Shown: positions 24,221-36,709 of the stretch, piece by piece
Position numbering within the stretch: the first letter of the stretch is position 1
How the letters are laid out: every line of letters begins with the position of its first letter
Source of the DNA: Pseudomonadota bacterium
Lineage (GTDB): Bacteria; Desulfobacterota; Desulfovibrionia; Desulfovibrionales; Desulfovibrionaceae
Direction of reading: 5' to 3'
Length of the DNA stretch: 36,710 nucleotides
Assembly (NCBI GenBank): GCA_018817515.1
Contig: JAHIUD010000104.1
Span: 1-36,710 of the forward strand
The notes under the pieces: generated by a model
Databases searched by the model: none
The model's input: only the letters and a program-made list of their open reading frames with translations
Told to the model about the DNA's origin: nothing
Position numbers and translations under genes: made by a program

Positions 24221-24706
24221 CTACCAGAGCGGTTTGTTGGTCTTGGCCAGGTAGTCGTCCAGGTCCTCGATCTCGTCGCTGGGCCAGGGGCACTGCAGGT
24301 TGATGAAGTTCAGCAGGTCCATGAGCCGGTCGATGGTCTCGCTTTCCGGTCCGGCTGGGGCCAGGGGCACCCAGGCCACGGGGTTGAAGCCCTTGGCCTT
24401 GCACCAGTCCCGCGTGGCCGCGAAGCCAGAGCCCGGCACGTCCTCGTCCAGGCAGACGAGCACCAGGACGCTCGCCCCGGCATGCGCTCCGTAGAGGGCC
24501 TCGGGGTCCTGGCCCTGGCGCAGGGCGCGGCCCAGCATGACCAGCGGATAGCCGTCGCGGAAGAGCGTGCGCCACTGGTTCTTGCGCATGTGCAGGTTGG
24601 GCTTGAGGTGGCGCGCCAATTCGCGGCGCACCGGGGCCTCGGCAGGGCCGCTGACGAGCACGGCGAGCTTGGGCATGGTCTTGAGCTTCAGTGTGCTCAT
24701 TGTCAT
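24221..24706 (-). CDS. Protein of unknown function, translationally coupled to hypB
   Basis: I do not recognise the family. The 161-residue product is soluble, with a first strand PKLAVLVSGPAEAPVRRELARHL, a basic segment HMRKNQWRTLFRDGYPLVMLGRALR, a strand SVLVLVCLDEDVPGSG, and an acidic C-terminus with SDEIEDLDDYLAKTNKPLW. Two cysteines only besides C-terminal QCPW; no metal motif. The start ATG (24704-24706) shares a base with the hypB stop (TAATG), so translation is coupled and the gene belongs to the hypA-hypB unit. This points to a role with hydrogenase maturation or nickel handling, or to chance operon growth; there is no direct evidence. A downstream ATG at 24700 is also possible. Confidence 0.7.
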   Translation of the reverse strand: MTMSTLKLKTMPKLAVLVSGPAEAPVRRELARHLKPNLHMRKNQWRTLFRDGYPLVMLGRALRQGQDPEALYGAHAGASVLVLVCLDEDVPGSGFAATRDWCKAKGFNPVAWVPLAPAGPESETIDRLMDLLNFINLQCPWPSDEIEDLDDYLAKTNKPLW

Positions 24707-25365
24707 TAGCGCTTGCTGGCCCGGGCCTTGCGCAGCCAATCGTACCAGGGCCCCAGGCCTTCCTGGGTGCGGCAGGCCACGGGGAAGATCTCGATGTCCT
24801 TGTTGAGCTTGCGCGCATGGGCGCTGGCGGCCTCAAGGCTGAAGTCCACGTAAGGCAAAAGGTCGGTCTTGTTCAGCAGCATCACCGAGGAGAGGTGGAA
24901 CATAAGCGGATATTTTTCCGGCTTGTCGTCGCCCTCGGTGACGGAGAGGATGCTGACCTTGTGGTCCTCGCCCAGGTTGAACTCCGCCGGGCAGACCAGG
25001 TTGCCCACGTTCTCGATGAACAGGATGTCCAGGTCCTTCATGTCCAGCACGGCGATGGCGTCCTCGATCATGGAACTGTCCAGGTGGCAGCCGCCCTCGG
25101 TATTCACCTGCACGGCCTGGGCGCCGGTGGCGGCCACGCGCCGCGCGTCGTTGTCGGTCTGCAGGTCGCCCTCGATGACGGCCATCTTGAACTCGCCCTT
25201 GAGGTCGGCCAGGGTCCGCTCCAGCAGGCTGGTCTTGCCCGCGCCGGGGCTGCTCATGAGGTTCAGGCAGAGGATCTTGTTGCCGTCGAAATAGCTTTTG
25301 AGGCTGGCGGCGCGGCGCTCGTTGGCCTCCAGCACGTTGCGGACGATGGTCACGGTCTTGGACAT
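24706..25365 (-). CDS. hypB: Hydrogenase nickel-incorporation GTPase HypB
   Basis: GTPase that delivers nickel to NiFe hydrogenase precursors together with HypA. The P-loop is SSPGAGKTSLLE (about 38-49), followed by VIEGDLQTDNDARRV, the metal-binding segment EGGCHLDSSMI with the conserved Cys-His, IENVGNLVCPAEFNLGE, and the NKTDLLPYV specificity motif. There is no N-terminal histidine-rich nickel-storage stretch; the protein of 219 residues starts directly with SKTVTIVRNVLEANERRA. hypA overlaps its start by 16 bases and an unknown gene overlaps its stop by one base, so the three are cotranscribed. Confidence 0.95.
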   Translation of the reverse strand: MSKTVTIVRNVLEANERRAASLKSYFDGNKILCLNLMSSPGAGKTSLLERTLADLKGEFKMAVIEGDLQTDNDARRVAATGAQAVQVNTEGGCHLDSSMIEDAIAVLDMKDLDILFIENVGNLVCPAEFNLGEDHKVSILSVTEGDDKPEKYPLMFHLSSVMLLNKTDLLPYVDFSLEAASAHARKLNKDIEIFPVACRTQEGLGPWYDWLRKARASKR

Positions 25366-25754
25366 TGCGCACTCCCGCTTGCGGCCACTTCGTCCTTGTC
25401 GTCAGGGACGTCGGCCTCGATTTCTTCGATGTAGAGTTCCTTGCCGCTCACGATGTCGTGCCCCAGAATCTCCTCGCAGGCCGGACAGGGCATGTATTGC
25501 TTGTCCTCGGGCTCGAAGGCCAGGCCGCAGGAGCCGCAGGTCACGCGCAGGGGCGCGTCCACGATGTCCAGGGTCACGCCCTTGAGCTCACCCTCGGCCG
25601 TCAGGCACTCCCAGCCAAAGGCCAGGGCGTCCGAGACAGCGCCGGAGAGCGCGCCGTTGACCACGCGCACGCGGACGATGCGCTCCATGCCGTGCTTGGT
25701 GCGCTCCTCGCGGATGATCTCGATCATGCTTTGGATGAGTGAAAGTTCATGCAT
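25350..25754 (-). CDS. hypA: Hydrogenase nickel chaperone HypA
   Basis: Small zinc and nickel protein that works with HypB. The required N-terminal MHELSL, whose His2 binds nickel, fixes the start at 25754. The zinc finger is C73-x2-C76 (TCGSCGL) and C90-x2-C93 (PCPACEE). At 134 residues it is longer than the usual ~115 because of a Glu/Asp-rich tail after SGKELYIEEIEADVPDD that continues over the hypB start. The frame is open upstream to 25931 but that part is Arg/Pro-rich shadow sequence. A 58-base gap separates it from the QueC-like gene upstream. Confidence 0.93.
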   Translation of the reverse strand: MHELSLIQSMIEIIREERTKHGMERIVRVRVVNGALSGAVSDALAFGWECLTAEGELKGVTLDIVDAPLRVTCGSCGLAFEPEDKQYMPCPACEEILGHDIVSGKELYIEEIEADVPDDKDEVAASGSAQCPRP

Positions 25755-25812: not shown

Positions 25813-26523
25813 TCAGGGCGTCGGGACGGACGGGCTGGAGGCGGTGAAGGGGCCTTCGGACCCCGACGCATCTTGCTGGCCCGAAGGCTCTGGCAGAGCC
25901 CCCTCCTTCTGCGGCGGCGGCGCGATGCCAAGTGTCCTGCAACTGATGCACTTGCCGCAGGCGATGGCCTGCTTGCCCTCGTATGTGGGCCTGCGGCAGG
26001 ACCAAGTGTGGGCGCGCAGCTCCGGCGGCAAAAGTTCCCAGATGTCGCGCTTGGTCAGCTGGGCCAGGGGCAAGATCTGCTCGGAGGGGTTCAGGTTCAG
26101 GGATTTCACCGCCCGGAAGATTGTCTGGGCCCGGCCCATGCGCCCCTGGAAGTCGCTGCCGCCTTGCTCGATGTCCGTTTTCGTGACGCCCAGGGCCACG
26201 TAGCGGATGTCCGAGGTGGCGTTGCAGATGTTCCCGGCCATGAAGGCGCAGAGGTCCGCATCCCAGATGAGCTGCCGGTTGAAGGCCGGATAGCGGTGCA
26301 GGCTCTCCGAATAGCTGAACTCCCGGTAGCCGCTCTTGCGCATGTGCTCCAACGCCCCCTGGGTGACGGCGTGCATCACCAGGGCGCGGTTCTCAGGGTT
26401 CACAAGCTGCAGGTGGTGAACGTGGATGGCGTAGTCCTTGAACTCGTCGCGCGTCAGCAGCACGTGCAGCAGCCCTGCCGAATCAAGGCCGCCGGAATAC
26501 ATGCAGAGGATTATGTTGCTCAT
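25813..26523 (-). CDS. QueC-like PP-loop ATPase
   Basis: N-type ATP pyrophosphatase related to 7-cyano-7-deazaguanine synthase. The PP-loop is SGGLDSAGLLH (about 10-20), and the C-terminal zinc site looks like that of QueC: HTWSCRR followed by ACGKCISCRTLG. The middle LTKRDIWELLP also fits QueC's LTKxEI segment. The match is not complete; QueC normally has SGGxDSxT, and spacing before the cysteines is longer here, so I leave the substrate open (queuosine pathway or another nucleobase). 236 residues; the last 25 (EPSGQQDASGSEGPFTASS) are low complexity. The start MSNIILCMY at 26523 is chosen over an upstream ATG at 26595 with no similarity in between. Confidence 0.75.
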   Translation of the reverse strand: MSNIILCMYSGGLDSAGLLHVLLTRDEFKDYAIHVHHLQLVNPENRALVMHAVTQGALEHMRKSGYREFSYSESLHRYPAFNRQLIWDADLCAFMAGNICNATSDIRYVALGVTKTDIEQGGSDFQGRMGRAQTIFRAVKSLNLNPSEQILPLAQLTKRDIWELLPPELRAHTWSCRRPTYEGKQAIACGKCISCRTLGIAPPPQKEGALPEPSGQQDASGSEGPFTASSPSVPTP

Positions 26524-31885: not shown

Positions 31886-32425
31886 TCAGGCCTTGGCGCG
31901 CAGGAGGACCTTGTCCTGCTCGTCACGCTCGGACACGAGGACATCCACGCGTTCGTGGATTGCGGTGTTCACGCGCTTGCCCACGTAGTCGGCCTGGATG
32001 GGCAGCTCGCGGTGACCTCGGTCGATGAGAACCAAAAGCTCCACGCGCCTGGGGCGGCCGAAGTCGAGGATGGCCTCCAGGGCGGCGCGGGTGGTGCGGC
32101 CGGAGTAGAGCACGTCGTCCACCAGGATGAGGGTCGCACCCTCGATGTTGGCCGGGATGTCCGTGCTGCTGATGGTCGGCGAGATGCCGAGGTTGCTCCA
32201 GTCGTCGCGATAGAGATTGATGTCGAGCATGCCGAACAGTGTCGGTGCGGCCAGCCGGGCGTCCAGCAGGGCCTTGAGCCTGCGGGCCAGGTCCACGCCC
32301 CGGCGCTGAATGCCGACCAGCACGAGGGGGCCTTCCTCGCCCCGGCGCTCGATGATTTCCGAGGCCAGGCGTTCAAGCGTGCGGGCCATTTCCTTGGCGG
32401 TCATGAGGGTGCGCGTTTCGCTCAT
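31886..32425 (-). CDS. pyrR: PyrR-type pyrimidine regulator / uracil phosphoribosyltransferase
   Basis: A 179-residue member of the PyrR family. The PRPP motif is LVDDVLYSGRTTRAALEAI, with VGIQRRGVDLARRL (the typical VGIxTRG segment) near residue 35 and VLIDRGHRELPIQADYVGK after the PRPP site. PyrR binds RNA leaders of pyrimidine operons in Gram-positives and has uracil phosphoribosyltransferase activity; whether it regulates here is unknown and no leader with a PyrR site is seen. The start ATG at 32425 overlaps the stop of the TetR gene (ATGA), and an 18-base gap leads to the next gene. Confidence 0.9.
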   Translation of the reverse strand: MSETRTLMTAKEMARTLERLASEIIERRGEEGPLVLVGIQRRGVDLARRLKALLDARLAAPTLFGMLDINLYRDDWSNLGISPTISSTDIPANIEGATLILVDDVLYSGRTTRAALEAILDFGRPRRVELLVLIDRGHRELPIQADYVGKRVNTAIHERVDVLVSERDEQDKVLLRAKA

Positions 32426-32991
32426 CCCTTGGCCCCGGGAATCATCAGGCTGCGGCGGCAAAATTCCACGGCTTCCTTTGAAAAGTCATCGATCTCCGGC
32501 CAGTAGAGCTTGATGCGCATGAGGCCGAAAAACATATTGGCCAGGATCAGGCCCGTGGGCCTGAGCGGGACCTCGATAAGGCTGCCGCTCTTATGCCCGT
32601 GGGCCAGGAAGTCCTCGAACAGGCTGCGCATGCGCTCGATGAACCGGCCCATGGAGCGCCGTGTGGTGTCCAGGATGCTGTAGGTGCCGAGCACGATCTT
32701 GATGTCCGCGGCGTTGGCGTCGAGAAAGGTGAAATGGTTGCCCAGAAGGTCGTCCAGGGACAGACTGCCCTTTTCCATGCGCGCGCGGCAGTTCTCGGAC
32801 AAGGTCTGGTACTTTTCGTCAAAGGCGTCCAGGATGTGCTGGAGGATGTCTTCCTTGCTCTCAAAATGACGGTAGATGGTGCCTTCGGAGATGTCGGCCT
32901 GTTTGGCCAGGTTTGCCGTGGTCATCTTGTGGAAGCCCACTTCTGATATCATGTCCTTGGCGGTGACTAGGATGAGATCCTTGGTGCTCAT
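32422..32991 (-). CDS. TetR-family transcriptional regulator
   Basis: A 189-residue repressor. The N-terminal helix-turn-helix is MSTKDLILVTAKDMISEVGFHKMTTANLAKQADISEGTIYRHFESKEDILQHIL (residues 1-54). The C-terminal ligand/dimer domain (about 60-189) is all-helical with no cysteines before SKEAVEFCRR. The start at 32991 is chosen for the usual TetR N-terminus; upstream in-frame ATGs at 33003 and 33042 add proline-rich residues. First gene of tetR-pyrR-aroK-ykgJ and divergent from the selenocysteine gene at 33173, which could be its target. Confidence 0.9.
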   Translation of the reverse strand: MSTKDLILVTAKDMISEVGFHKMTTANLAKQADISEGTIYRHFESKEDILQHILDAFDEKYQTLSENCRARMEKGSLSLDDLLGNHFTFLDANAADIKIVLGTYSILDTTRRSMGRFIERMRSLFEDFLAHGHKSGSLIEVPLRPTGLILANMFFGLMRIKLYWPEIDDFSKEAVEFCRRSLMIPGAKG

Positions 32992-33110
32992 GGGAATCCT
33001 CATCAGGGGGGGTAGTCGTTCCAGGGGAGCGGGTATTCGCACCCCCAGGTTTGGATGTAGCCCAGAGCGGCACAGGGGTCAACGGTCTACGAAAAAGCGC
33101 AAGTGCTCAT

Positions 33111-33139
33111 TTGACAAAGTTGCGGGCCGTCATTATCTA
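33111..33139 (+). promoter_or_regulatory. Putative promoter of the selenocysteine HesB-like gene
   Basis: A perfect TTGACA (33111-33116) is followed after 17 bases by TATCTA (33134-33139), a weak -10. The start codon is 33 bases further down, with AAGGAGG at 33160-33166 as ribosome site. TTTGACAAA around the -35 is a short palindrome. Confidence 0.5.
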
Positions 33140-33172
33140 TGCAGCTCCCACAAACGTTCAAGGAGGCTTGCA

Positions 33173-33511
33173 ATGATTGAACTGACGGAAGCCGCCAAGA
33201 CCCAGCTCGACGGGTACTTTGCGGACAAGGAAAAGACCCCGATTCGCGTCTTTATGGCGTCCGGGGGCTGAAGCGGCCCCAGACTGTCGCTGGCTCTGGA
33301 TGAGCCGCGTGAGAACGACGACACCTTCGAAGTGATGGGCTACAGCTTCTGCGTGGAGCGGGCCCTGGGAGAGAAAACCGGCGCCATCCGCATCGACATG
33401 ACCAGCTACGGCTTCACTGTCGATTCGGAAAATCCCATGAACCTGGGCGGCGGCGGATGCGGCGGCAGCTGCGGAAGCGGGGAGAAATCCTCCGGCGGCT
33501 GTTCCTGCTAG
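33173..33511 (+). CDS. HesB/IscA-like selenoprotein (TGA at codon 33 read as selenocysteine)
   Basis: Read through one TGA (33269-33271), the frame gives a 112-residue protein ending at TAG 33509-33511. Residues 1-28 (MIELTEAAKTQLDGYFADKEKTPIRV) are nearly the same as those of the next gene, and after the TGA the protein continues in frame as SGPRLSLALDEP, ending in a Gly/Cys tail (GGGGCGGSC...GGCSC). The TGA lies at the position of the Cys pair (AGGCCGPKLSLALDE) of the neighbour. A stem-loop follows it. The fold is the HesB/IscA/ErpA A-type family; the tail adds five cysteines. Selenocysteine HesB-like proteins have been reported in deltaproteobacteria. Start ATG follows AAGGAGG. A decayed pseudogene is unlikely, since the second half is well conserved. 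Confidence 0.85.
33273..33308 (+). promoter_or_regulatory. SECIS-like stem-loop directly after the in-frame TGA
   Basis: Starting two bases past the TGA, GCGGC (33273-33277) pairs with GCCGC (33304-33308); inside it CCAGA (33279-33283) pairs with TCTGG (33295-33299), or CCAG with CTGG (33290-33293) leaving a 7-base loop ACTGTCG that contains a GT. Position and size match bacterial SECIS elements, which SelB recognises immediately downstream of the UGA within the coding region. In the intact cysteine paralogue the same place reads differently (CCCAAGCTCTCCCTGGC). Confidence 0.65.
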
Positions 33512-33534
33512 GAATCAATCCCCACGGCGATATA

Positions 33535-33568
33535 GGGCGGCGTTCCACGGAGCGCCGCCCGTTTTTTT
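33535..33568 (+). terminator. Intrinsic terminator after the selenocysteine gene
   Basis: GGGCGGCG (33535-33542) pairs with CGCCGCCC (33553-33560), extended by TTC / GGA pairs inside, followed by G and seven T (33562-33568). It separates the two tandem HesB-like genes, so the second probably has its own promoter. Confidence 0.9.
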
Positions 33569-33649
33569 GGGGCAGCGCTCGGCAAGTCCTGGCAGTTCGT
33601 TGTTGCAAGGCCATGAAACAACACACAAACGCATACAAGGAGCGCCCCA

Positions 33650-34006
33650 ATGATTACACTGAGTGAAGCCGCCCGCGACCAGCTCGACGGCTATTTCGAG
33701 GACAAGGAAAAGTCCCCCCTGCGCATCTTCCTGGCAGGCGGCTGCTGCGGCCCCAAGCTCTCCCTGGCTCTGGACGAGGTCCGCGACGGCGATGAGACCG
33801 TTGAGAGCATGGGCTACACCCTGCTGGCGGAGAAGTCCCTCTTGGCCGCTGCGGGCAAGATCGTCATCGATGCCGGGGAGTACGGCTTCTCTGTGGAGTC
33901 CGAGAACCAGCTTGGCGGCGAGTCTGGCGGAAGCTGCGGCTCTGGCGGCTGCGGAGGTGGTGAGTCCGGCAGCGGCTGCGGCTCCGGCGGCTGCGGCTGT
34001 TCCTAG
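33650..34006 (+). CDS. HesB/IscA-like protein, cysteine paralogue with Gly/Cys tail
   Basis: A 118-residue tandem paralogue of the preceding selenoprotein. Residues 1-35 (MITLSEAARDQLDGYFEDKEK...LRIFLAGGCCGPK) hold the HesB/IscA N-terminal core with a vicinal Cys pair C32-C33 in place of the TGA residue, followed by LSLALDEVRDGDETVESMGYTLLAEK and a typical A-type strand GKIVIDAGEYGFSVESE. The last 25 residues are a Gly/Ser/Cys tail with six cysteines (GGSCGSGGCGGGESGSGC...). A-type proteins normally end with a CxC pair at a fixed place; here the C-terminal cysteines are in this flexible tail instead. Likely iron, iron-sulfur or metal handling; exact role unknown. ATG follows AAGGAGCG. Ends at a bidirectional terminator. 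Confidence 0.82.
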   Translation: MITLSEAARDQLDGYFEDKEKSPLRIFLAGGCCGPKLSLALDEVRDGDETVESMGYTLLAEKSLLAAAGKIVIDAGEYGFSVESENQLGGESGGSCGSGGCGGGESGSGCGSGGCGCS

Positions 34007-34023
34007 GCCAGGCATCAACGACA

Positions 34024-34071
34024 CGAAAAGGCGGCGCCCTCCACGTTTGACTGGAGTGCGCCGCTTTTTTT
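34024..34071. terminator. Bidirectional terminator between the HesB-like gene and ridA
   Basis: GCGGCGC (34031-34037) pairs with GCGCCGC (34058-34064), with the inner pair CTCCA (34039-34043) / TGGAG (34052-34056). An A-run (34026-34029) precedes it and seven T (34065-34071) follow, so it can stop both the plus-strand HesB-like transcript and the minus-strand ridA transcript. Confidence 0.88.
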
Positions 34072-34078
34072 GCGCGCC

Positions 34079-34465
34079 TTAGGCCTGGGCGGCCACCACG
34101 CGCACCTCCACCTGGGCCTCGCGCGGGAGCGCGGCCACGGCCACGGCGGCCCGGGCGGGCTTGTGGCTGGTGAAGTAGGTGCTGTAGATCTCGTTGAACT
34201 CGCCGAAGCGGCCCATGTCGATGAGAAACACGTCCACCGAGAGCACGCGTTCAAGGTTCGACCCGGCGGCCTCGACCACGGCGCGCACATTGTCCAGGGC
34301 CTGCCTGGCCTGGGCGGAGAAATCCTCCGGAATGATGCCGGTGGCCGGAACAATGCCGAGCTGGCCGCTTAGAAACACGAGCCCCCCATAGGTCACGGCC
34401 TGGGAGTAGGGGCCGATGGCGGCCGGGGCGTTGGCGGTCTGGACGGTCTTTGGTTCCGCGGACAT
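34079..34465 (-). CDS. ridA: RidA family enamine/imine deaminase
   Basis: A 128-residue trimeric protein that hydrolyses reactive enamine/imine intermediates from PLP enzymes. Signatures: AIGPYSQAVTYGGLVFLSGQLG at residues 18-39, DNVRAVVEAAGSNLERVLSVDVFL, and a C-terminal PARAAVAVAALPREAQVEVRVVA with the conserved Arg (R105 region, PAR) and Glu that form the active pocket. The start MSAEPKT at 34465 is preceded by CAAGGAG on the minus strand; the open frame continues to 34669 but that stretch is shadow sequence inside the upstream gene. The 14-base gap to the Gate-domain gene suggests cotranscription. Confidence 0.93.
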   Translation of the reverse strand: MSAEPKTVQTANAPAAIGPYSQAVTYGGLVFLSGQLGIVPATGIIPEDFSAQARQALDNVRAVVEAAGSNLERVLSVDVFLIDMGRFGEFNEIYSTYFTSHKPARAAVAVAALPREAQVEVRVVAAQA

Positions 34466-34479
34466 GAAGACTCCTTGGT

Positions 34480-35515
34480 TCAGGGTGCCGGGGTGCGCGC
34501 CACGGTGGACCACAGCAGGCGGTCCGCCAGGCCCGGGGCCAGGCGCGCAGAGCATTTGACGAGCAGGGCCGTTGCCGCGAGGGCGAAGACGAGCCTGGCC
34601 CAAAGGATGCCGGAGAGGTGCGCCCCCAGCATGGCCATGAGCAGGGTGTCCTCGATGAGGCTGTGGCACAGGCCCATGAGGGTCAGGGAAAAGAACACGT
34701 CGCGCTTGTCCACGCGTCCGCTTTTCGCTTCAAAGATGATGAGCCCGCCGCCGTAGGCCACGCCCAGGGTCAGCCCGGCCACGGTGATGCCCGAGGCCGC
34801 CGGACCGATGCCGATGAGCCGGAGCACGGGCCGCAGCAGGCGGTTCAACAGGTCGATGGCGCCCACGGCGGTCAACAGCCGCATCAGGGCCATGAGCCCG
34901 GTGATGATGAGCGCGATGGACAAAAGTTTCTGGCCCTCGCCCAGGGCCCAGAGCCAGAGCGTGGGGGTCGCCGCTGCCTCGGGCCGGGTGAAGAGCACTA
35001 CGGCCGGGCCTTGCAGGGTGTCTAAAGCCTTGTAGGCCGCGCTGAGCAGCATGCCCAGGACCAGCGCGCCGCCAAACCGTGACACGATCTGGAAGCGCAG
35101 GCGCGCGCCGGATTTGCGCGCGATGCCGAGCTCCACCGGCAGGTTGTGGGCCACCAGGATGAGCGTGGCCAGCACCGTCATCTGGGCCTGGGTCAAGGGG
35201 GCGGCGCCGAGGGCCAGGAACACGATGATGGCGCTGTAGATGTTGTTCAAAAGCGCCGTGGCCCAGACCAGGCCCATCTCCGGCGGCAGGCCGACCAGGG
35301 CCATGAGGGGGGTAAGCGGCATGGCCAGGTAGGGCACGGCCCCCCAGCTCCTGGAGCACCTTCACGCCGAGGACCACCGGGATCATGACCACGAAGAGCT
35401 CCCGGCAGACGCGGAGGCTCTGCAGCAGAACGTCCCGGGCGGCGCGGCCAAAGGCTGCGCCCAGGCGCGCGGTCTGGGGAGCTTCGGGCTTGGCGGATGT
35501 GGAGCTGGCTGGCAT
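34480..35515 (-). pseudogene. Gate-domain (nucleoside-recognition) membrane protein, frameshifted
   Basis: Two overlapping frames together make one protein. The first (from 35515) gives MPASSTSAKPEAPQTARLG...SLRVCRELFVVMIPVVLGVKVLQELG; the second (to 34480) gives PYLAMPLTPLMALVGLPPEMGLVWATALLNNIYSAII and about eight hydrophobic helices, including NNIYSAIIVFLAL and the repeated Gate-like GVAYGGGLIIFEAKSG. The frames part in a run of six C at 35340-35345. Removing one C joins them as VLQELGAVPYLAMP, with no other defect. So this is a one-base insertion in a homopolymer: a sequencing or assembly error, a phase-variable site, or an early pseudogene. Adjacent feoB carries the same Gate-type domains, so a role in transport is possible. 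Confidence 0.75.
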
Positions 35516-35594
35516 GCGCGCCGAACATAGGCGGTTTGGCCACGAAAGGGAAGCCTGGGGGCCGGAGGAAGGAGGGTGTCGGGCCGGATGATGG

Positions 35595-35628
35595 GGAGCC
35601 CCGGCGGTCTTGCGGCCACCGGGGCTCC
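35595..35628 (-). other. Stable hairpin downstream of feoB
   Basis: GGAGCCCCGG (35595-35604) pairs with CCGGGGCTCC (35619-35628), a perfect 10-base stem with a 14-base loop, 49 bases after the feoB stop on the minus strand. There is no T-run, so it is a possible factor-dependent terminator or RNA 3' end. Confidence 0.45.
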
Positions 35629-35677
35629 GGCTGGAGGAGGAGTGTCGAGGTTGGCGCGGGCGCTGGGCCCTTGCGCC

Positions 35678-36709
35678 CTAGCTGAACAGCCGCGCTGTCT
35701 GGAACACGGCCACGGCGGCCACGAAGGCCAGGCTGGTGTTGAAGACCATGGCGAATCCGGCCCACTTCCAACTGGACTCGCGGGCCATGGTCACGATGGT
35801 CACGGAGCAGGGCGCGTAGAGGATGACGAAGATGATCAGCGCCAGTGCCGCGGACCTGGGGAAGGTGGGGTCCTGGGACAAGAGGCGCGACAGGGGCGCG
35901 GCGTCCTCGGCATCGACCTCGCCCAGGGAGTAGGCCGTGCCCAGGGTGGACACGATGACCTCCTTGGCCGCAAGTCCGCCCACCAGCGCGATGTTCACGC
36001 GCCAGTTGAAGCCGGCCAGACTGCTCACCGACTCCAGCGCCACGCCGGCGCGCCCGGCGGCGGAGGCCTTCAGGGATTCTTCGGAACGCTCCCCGGCCAG
36101 GCTGGCCAGCGCCTCGGTGAGCTCCGCCGGAGGCTCCTGGCCTTGGGTCTTGGCGTCGTCGATCTGCTGTTGCACCACGGCCTCGCGGGCATCAAAGGCC
36201 TTGGCCTGTTCTGCAGGCAGGCCGGGGAAGGTCATGGCCGCCCAGAGCAGCACGGAGATGGCCAGGATGGTGGTGCCGGCCTTGCGCATATAGTCCCAGG
36301 AGCGCTCCCAGGTGTGGATGCACAGGCCGCTTAGGGTCGGCATGCGGTACGGCGGCAACTCCATGACAAAGGGCGTGCTCTCGCCCTTGACCACGGTGGA
36401 GCGCAGGAGCTTGGCCACAAGCAGGGCCGCGACCCAGGCCGTCAGCGTCACCAGGGACATGACCCCGGCCTCGGAGCCGGGGAAGAAGGCCGCGGCCAGC
36501 ATCAGGAACACCGGCACCTTGGCCCCGCAGGTCATGAACGGTGTGACCAGCAGGGTAGCCAGCTTCTCCTTGGGGCTTCTGAGCGCTCGGGTGGCCATGA
36601 CGCCGGGCACGGCGCAGCCGCCAGCGATGCCGCCCGCCACGATGAACGGCAGCACGCTGGTGCCGTGCAGCCCGAAGATACGGAACACGCGGTCGAGCAT
36701 GTAGGCCAT
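35678..36709 (-). CDS. feoB: Ferrous iron transporter FeoB, C-terminal membrane part (5' end outside the window)
   Basis: 343 residues of the membrane half of FeoB, which imports Fe(II) through the inner membrane. The frame begins at the window edge, so the ATG there is probably internal and the N-terminal G-domain lies beyond it. Visible FeoB features: VLPFIVAGGIAGGCAVPGVMATRAL, TPFMTCGAKVPVFLMLAAAFFP (the first Gate with its conserved cysteine), ELPPYRMPTLSGLCIHTWERSWDYMRKAGTTILAISVLLW, and the second Gate WRVNIALVGGLAAKEVIVSTLGTAYSLGE followed by LYAPCSVTIVTMARESSWKWAGF. The insert of about 60 residues (EQAKAFDAREAVVQQQI...) between helices is charged. Its C-terminus is at 35678. Confidence 0.92.
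   Translation of the reverse strand: MAYMLDRVFRIFGLHGTSVLPFIVAGGIAGGCAVPGVMATRALRSPKEKLATLLVTPFMTCGAKVPVFLMLAAAFFPGSEAGVMSLVTLTAWVAALLVAKLLRSTVVKGESTPFVMELPPYRMPTLSGLCIHTWERSWDYMRKAGTTILAISVLLWAAMTFPGLPAEQAKAFDAREAVVQQQIDDAKTQGQEPPAELTEALASLAGERSEESLKASAAGRAGVALESVSSLAGFNWRVNIALVGGLAAKEVIVSTLGTAYSLGEVDAEDAAPLSRLLSQDPTFPRSAALALIIFVILYAPCSVTIVTMARESSWKWAGFAMVFNTSLAFVAAVAVFQTARLFS

Follow-up and report, generated by a model that had tools for sequence, protein, structure and literature searches.

The locus and its two NF038090 genes

Near the right end of the window (the whole stretch of DNA that was analysed, 36,710 nucleotides), two genes of the IscA/HesB kind follow each other on the plus strand, and the first of them carries an in-frame TGA that we predict to be read as selenocysteine (Sec). 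The host assembly comprises 3.6 Mb in 114 contigs and is 95% complete. The features of the locus are the following:

31886-32461, minus strand: PyrR-type phosphoribosyltransferase (NF003549, 215.8 bits, cut-off 138)
32422-33042, minus strand: TetR-family regulator, between the PyrR-type gene and the Sec-type gene (PF00440, 56.1 bits, cut-off 24)
33160-33166, plus strand: ribosome-binding site AAGGAGG, assigned from sequence, 6-nt gap to the ATG (33173-33175)
33173-33511, plus strand: Sec-type IscA/HesB gene, 112 codons, codon 33 predicted as Sec, stop TAG, match to NF038090
33269-33271, plus strand: in-frame TGA (codon 33), predicted selenocysteine in the motif GGUSGP, at the same codon in relatives
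33287-33312, plus strand: predicted bacterial SECIS hairpin, core 33292-33306 (GGCTC-TGGAT-GAGCC), loop 33297-33301
33535-33560, plus strand: intergenic hairpin of terminator-like form with a T run behind it, separating the Sec gene from the Cys gene (one found, shuffle mean 1.0, and thus weak as a single match)
33650-34006, plus strand: Cys-type paralogue, motif GGCCGP, 118 aa (NF038090, 92.6 bits)

The reading frame is exactly as the first-pass annotation had described it, with a ribosome site, an ATG, a TGA at codon 33 and, as the next stop, the TAG at 33509-33511; purine-rich sites of a like kind precede the Sec genes of the relatives displayed. Ordinary translation would cut the gene at codon 32, and read-through restores the correct reading. 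The read-through product of 112 aa matches the NCBIfam model NF038090 (IscA_HesB_Se) over its full length with 112.5 bits (cut-off 85) when Cys is written for Sec, or 105.3 bits in the genome search, and this gene and its neighbour are the only two matches to the model in their own genome at E 0.001. Both halves of the product align with the neighbour, as had been claimed from the letters alone (58% identity over 89 aligned positions, E 7e-37), and the TGA, which had been said to face one of the neighbour's vicinal cysteines, falls opposite the first of the two (GGU-S-GP versus GGC-C-GP). We therefore consider it very probable that 33173-33511 is a genuine gene whose apparent stop is read as selenocysteine and whose product is a small protein of the iron-sulfur type.

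This gene is a member of a protein kind known since the 2000s. Both copies in the window match NF038090 at full length and over its curated cut-off, and by score nothing sets the Sec gene apart from this model; we read the "Se" in the model name as the mark of a selenoprotein family. PMC1794560 counts 11 members among the HesB-like selenoproteins, with holders including D. vulgaris and D. desulfuricans, and PMC1914089 names DVU_1382 of D. vulgaris as one of them. These proteins, likened here by description, resemble ours in belonging to the HesB family, in having a TGA and in coming from the same bacterial family, but the accessible portions of both papers make no mention of a tandem Cys gene. 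For the HesB-like family, PMC13188914 gives the model TIGR01911 (HesB_rel_seleno) and the motif UxGP; the USGP of our gene fits this motif, yet its product scores 25.1 bits against a cut-off of 66.35 and so lies outside that model. According to PMC11097638, a HesB-like selenoprotein of Methanococcus maripaludis, also likened by description, came to light through mutagenesis and 75Se labelling, but this protein is archaeal, and the archaeal SECIS is described as lying in the 3' UTR and having another structure. While the first-pass annotation was right to propose a selenoprotein, calling it hidden was an overstatement, since NCBI has a model dedicated to the family and, according to a 2026 review, RefSeq and GenBank carry annotations for a substantial number of selenoproteins, the HesB-like ones serving there as an example query.

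The comparisons below rest on 106 copies from 73 loci found in order, family and genus searches (55 Sec-type copies and 51 Cys rows), the loci read in detail being taken from the best-scoring of the matches listed, with no more than 30 for each search. The 55 Sec-type copies represent one per genome from the best-scoring loci and are not a census, and the 51 Cys rows correspond to 49 genes, because L060/L072 and L058/L074 were counted twice with different cut ends.

Predicted fold and function of the Sec-type product

An AlphaFold model was obtained from a 12-row alignment, for which 10 of the 11 loci from one fetch were used (L101, an Opitutia locus that matched over 29 residues, was excluded). 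The predicted structure has the IscA fold, with a mean pLDDT of 72.6 and values below 50 for residues 92-112. Ten fold matches were obtained at E ≤0.001 with TM-scores of 0.52-0.71, including IscA (1x0g, 1r94, 1s98) and SufA (2d2a), the best being an IscA that holds a [2Fe-2S] cluster (1x0g, E 5.8e-7); HI1723 and DsrR are also matched by fold. In the sequence alignment, the cysteine of the GGC motif in AQ_1857 and HI1723 stands opposite Sec33. The protein thus shares the fold and the position of the first cysteine with IscA, SufA and ErpA, but differs from them in having Sec in place of Cys and a Gly/Cys-rich tail without CGC.

CGC is the C-terminal tail motif of A-type carriers. It is found in none of the 55 Sec tails and in 29 of the 51 Cys rows. 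The Sec tails instead have three to five cysteines after residue 88, the first two of which are mostly arranged as CxxxC (39/55). The canonical A-type models all score below their cut-offs on the Sec protein (IscA 22.8 versus 150.6, SufA 28.5 versus 136.2, ErpA 24.5 versus 117 bits), as does Pfam Fe-S_biosyn (23.1, cut-off 26.3), which together with the missing CGC makes an activity as Fe-S carrier uncertain. We infer that Sec33, together with cysteines of the tail, makes up a site for a metal or cluster or for redox chemistry. The protein might bind a metal or an Fe-S cluster through these residues and hand it on, or the same residues might perform thiol/selenol redox chemistry. The possibility of a thiol/selenol redox or metal-binding protein of HesB fold which is no Fe-S carrier is compatible with the gene encoding a selenoprotein and seems to us a serious option, if the less probable one: the absence of CGC from all Sec tails, the frequent CxxxC and the Fe-S_biosyn score speak for it, whereas the cluster-holding IscA as best fold match and the correspondence of Sec33 to a GGC cysteine in both HI1723 and AQ_1857 speak against it. 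The fold alone cannot decide between the two, as DsrR is also among the matches.

The in-frame TGA, its hairpin and the selenocysteine machinery

A stem-loop behind the TGA had been noted at 33273-33308; the structure is real, but the stable hairpin lies at 33287-33312 and thus starts about 14 nt further downstream. It has a UGGAU loop, an upper stem of 6 bp and 10 pairs in all with one bulge, and the loop comes 25 nt after the TGA. Taken alone (a 27-nt stretch), it folds with -13.9 kcal/mol, a stability reached by 1 of 200 shuffles (z -3.1), the signal being less marked in a 51-nt stretch around it (z -1.85, 12 of 200 shuffles). The bSECIS model printed in PMC13188914 asks for a loop of 3-9 nt with a G within its first two positions, an upper stem of 4-16 bp, and a spacing of 16-37 nt with an MFE of at most -7.5; with its 25-nt spacing and -13.9, the hairpin agrees with all four printed rules. 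A search of 32800-34200 against Rfam returned no SECIS family and two matches far below the gathering score (mir-290 and suhB), the latter overlapping the terminator-like hairpin.

Among relatives, the motif TGGCTC-TGGA[TC]-GAG[CT]C occurs at a fixed distance from the TGA, with the loop 25 nt behind it, in 55 of 55 Sec copies, versus one of 51 Cys rows. Likewise, the Ala codon at +8 is GCT in every Sec copy but in only three Cys rows (Fisher p 5e-27, uncorrected for kinship), and GCT is the least used of the other Ala codons in the same Sec genes (GCC 152, GCG 85, GCA 64, GCT 49). Since Sec and Cys copies encode a nearly identical LALDE peptide, the constraint acts on the nucleic acid and not on the protein; we accordingly rejected the idea that the hairpin is a mere by-product of a conserved LALDEP peptide, other codons being used for almost this peptide in the Cys copies. 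When synonymous codons were shuffled within each gene, the mean z was -1.60 for Sec copies and -0.56 for Cys copies. The core hardly varies and shows no covariation, no pair of the six-pair helix having changed on both sides. In the ten-pair helix two pairs did so, a number that 451 of 500 shuffles reach, and the covariation score was reached by 3 of 500 shuffles, so that support from the lower stem is modest and mixed.

The exact 36-nt pattern that runs from the TGA into the hairpin was found in 180 of the 297 genomes of the order, all but one of them (G028) Desulfovibrionaceae, and its reverse in none; as the pattern was built from Sec copies of the same genome set, this is a count and not an independent discovery. 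For this bacterial family, the SECIS hairpin is now sharply defined and could serve in searches for selenoproteins. At least one genome of the family (G186) lacks the exact pattern but holds a match of the Sec type with one TGA (99.1 bits). Five weak matches in the family (44-48 bits; G188, G306, G202, G275 and G293) also hold one in-frame TGA each and may form a second, divergent group of HesB-like selenoproteins; the one on contig C24 of G202 contains the exact TGA-hairpin pattern.

All parts required for selenocysteine insertion that the first-pass annotation had proposed to look for are found in the host genome. The tRNA-Sec (SelC) scores 83.6 bits (gathering score 47) and is called tRNA-SeC with anticodon tca by ARAGORN. 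The search gave seven matches in this genome, two of them over the gathering score (83.6 and 48), but the model also matched in 14 of 14 control genomes, over the gathering score in five, and therefore only the best, ARAGORN-confirmed match was used. SelB (381.3 bits) and SelA (575.7 bits), both over cut-off, are encoded within 5 kb of each other on contig C61, and SelD (323.6 bits, contig C31) has one in-frame TGA of its own, with a hairpin that differs from that of the Sec-type HesB gene. An open frame downstream of the tRNA-Sec (L001 1501-3090, contig C77) resembles by eye a primase of phages or integrative elements, so that such elements may integrate at the tRNA-Sec.

This genome has three FdhA genes that pass the cut-off, and one in-frame TGA is also present in two of them. 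Their hairpins (C95:15100-15114 and C35:6456-6470, GGCTC-TGGCA/TGGGA-GAGTC) are nearly the same as that of the HesB gene, with 22 nt from TGA to loop in both FdhA genes and 25 nt in the HesB gene, which suggests a common motif recognised by SelB. The pattern GGCTCTGGNNGAGYC has five matches in the 3.6 Mb genome (one for the reversed control), and a TGA lies within 40 nt upstream in three of them, namely the two FdhA genes and the Sec-type gene. An occurrence of the hairpin pattern at 25886 was considered as a second selenoprotein of the window and rejected, as no TGA is found in the 40 nt before it.

We further compared the presence of SelB with the form of the HesB-like gene in 69 genomes of the family, tallying matches of at least 75 bits, which leaves out 19 of 127 matches, five of these with one TGA. 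SelB is over cut-off in 59 genomes, of which 51 have a Sec copy, 4 only a Cys copy and 4 neither (no match of at least 75 bits); the genomes without SelB comprise 3 with Sec, 5 with Cys only and 2 with neither. Restricted to the 57 genomes that are at least 90% complete, the tally is 47 Sec and 4 Cys-only with SelB, versus 1 Sec, 4 Cys-only and 1 with neither when SelB is absent (Sec versus Cys-only by SelB, Fisher p 0.0009, uncorrected for kinship). The single exception, G251, has the Sec gene and no SelB found; this assembly is 95% complete but in 430 contigs, so its lack of SelB may be an assembly gap.

Sec decoding in general competes with termination. One could thus imagine that the UGA is read as another residue (Cys or Trp, through a near-cognate or variant tRNA) or serves as a selenium-sensing switch in which termination itself is functional, the intact Cys copy covering conditions of low selenium. 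We hold this to be very improbable in view of the complete set of Sec parts in the genome, the near-identical hairpin behind the TGA of two FdhA genes and the association of the Sec form with SelB in the more complete genomes.

The TGA occupies residue 33 within GGU[SA]GP in 55 of 55 Sec-type copies, each with exactly one TGA per domain and an open frame of 68-84 codons 3' of it, and the random stops that would have told against a selenoprotein are not seen among these homologues. None of the 51 Cys rows has a TGA, and each shows the motif CxG[PT]; as these rows were anchored on the Cys of that motif, TGC or TGT at the codon is given by construction. As expected of bacterial selenoproteins, some homologues retain the UGA while others, such as the neighbour, have Cys opposite it. 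In 14 same-genus sequences of the Humidesulfovibrio type (91 pairs), dN/dS is 0.13 before the TGA and 0.19-0.20 after it, indicating that the stretch 3' of the TGA evolves as protein under purifying selection. A decayed or mis-sequenced gene, in which the TGA came about by nonsense mutation or an error of sequencing and the product is no more than a fragment of 32 residues, is hardly credible even though the intact tandem neighbour could take over: in each of 55 genomes a copy has its TGA at this codon, the frame behind it is open and constrained, and the hairpin codons are fixed.

We thus consider it very probable, judging from the sequence data, that the gene encodes an A-type protein (IscA/HesB fold) in which selenocysteine replaces the first conserved cysteine; membership in NF038090, the conserved TGA, the purifying selection on the half behind it, the lineage-specific hairpin and the Sec machinery all favour the selenoprotein reading originally put forward. 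Decoding of the UGA as Sec would proceed through binding of SelB, loaded with Sec-tRNA, to the hairpin at 33287-33312.

The tandem Sec/Cys pair and its surroundings

The order Sec gene then Cys gene is found in 14 of 15 same-genus genomes, the fifteenth (G250, 87% complete) giving no match. In the family, 42 of the 69 genomes have both forms, and in 31 of these 42 the two genes lie within 1 kb on one strand, with the Sec gene first in 24 pairs and the Cys gene first in 7. By a crude test, a terminator-like structure separates the genes in 26 of 33 Sec-then-Cys pairs. In the region 33000-34150, no sigma-70-like site was found on the plus strand before either gene, and there was one on the minus strand.

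A tree of 100 rows and 91 columns, few for this purpose (6 of the 106 rows were dropped, being identical once the Sec/Cys column was masked), shows interleaved labels with 12 Sec/Cys changes, at least 7 of them forced by well-supported branches. A single, simple duplication with fixed residues therefore fails to explain the pairs, and recurrent duplication, exchange between Sec and Cys, or gene conversion are possible origins.

Searches of an open-access library turned up no description of a tandem Sec/Cys pair. Probably the Cys copy, which often lies behind a structure resembling a terminator, assists the Sec copy or stands in for it independently of selenium. More speculatively, and with the chances rather against it, the tandem IscA-like pair of Desulfovibrionaceae, which may often form two transcription units, could act as a selenium-responsive switch (or form a mixed Sec/Cys oligomer) in iron-sulfur handling, the pairing having arisen or been homogenised more than once, as the tree suggests. 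With both forms in the same cell, the pair offers a natural comparison that could show what an IscA-like protein gains from selenium.

Upstream, the divergent PyrR-type gene recurs at 50 of 54 other Sec loci (13/13 within the genus and 37/41 outside); the locus of the window lies outside the database of this neighbour search, and PyrR is present there too. The TetR-family gene was matched in every same-genus locus scanned and, with 45-49% identity, in three further loci (L077, L083 and L090). Elsewhere in the window, 24706-25745 (minus strand) carries the hydrogenase maturation genes hypB (over cut-off) and hypA (68 bits, below 88.1), and the region downstream of the pair, 34079-36709, contains a Rid-family gene and two genes with a Gate domain, one of them scoring slightly below the Pfam cut-off and the other also bearing a FeoB C-terminal domain.
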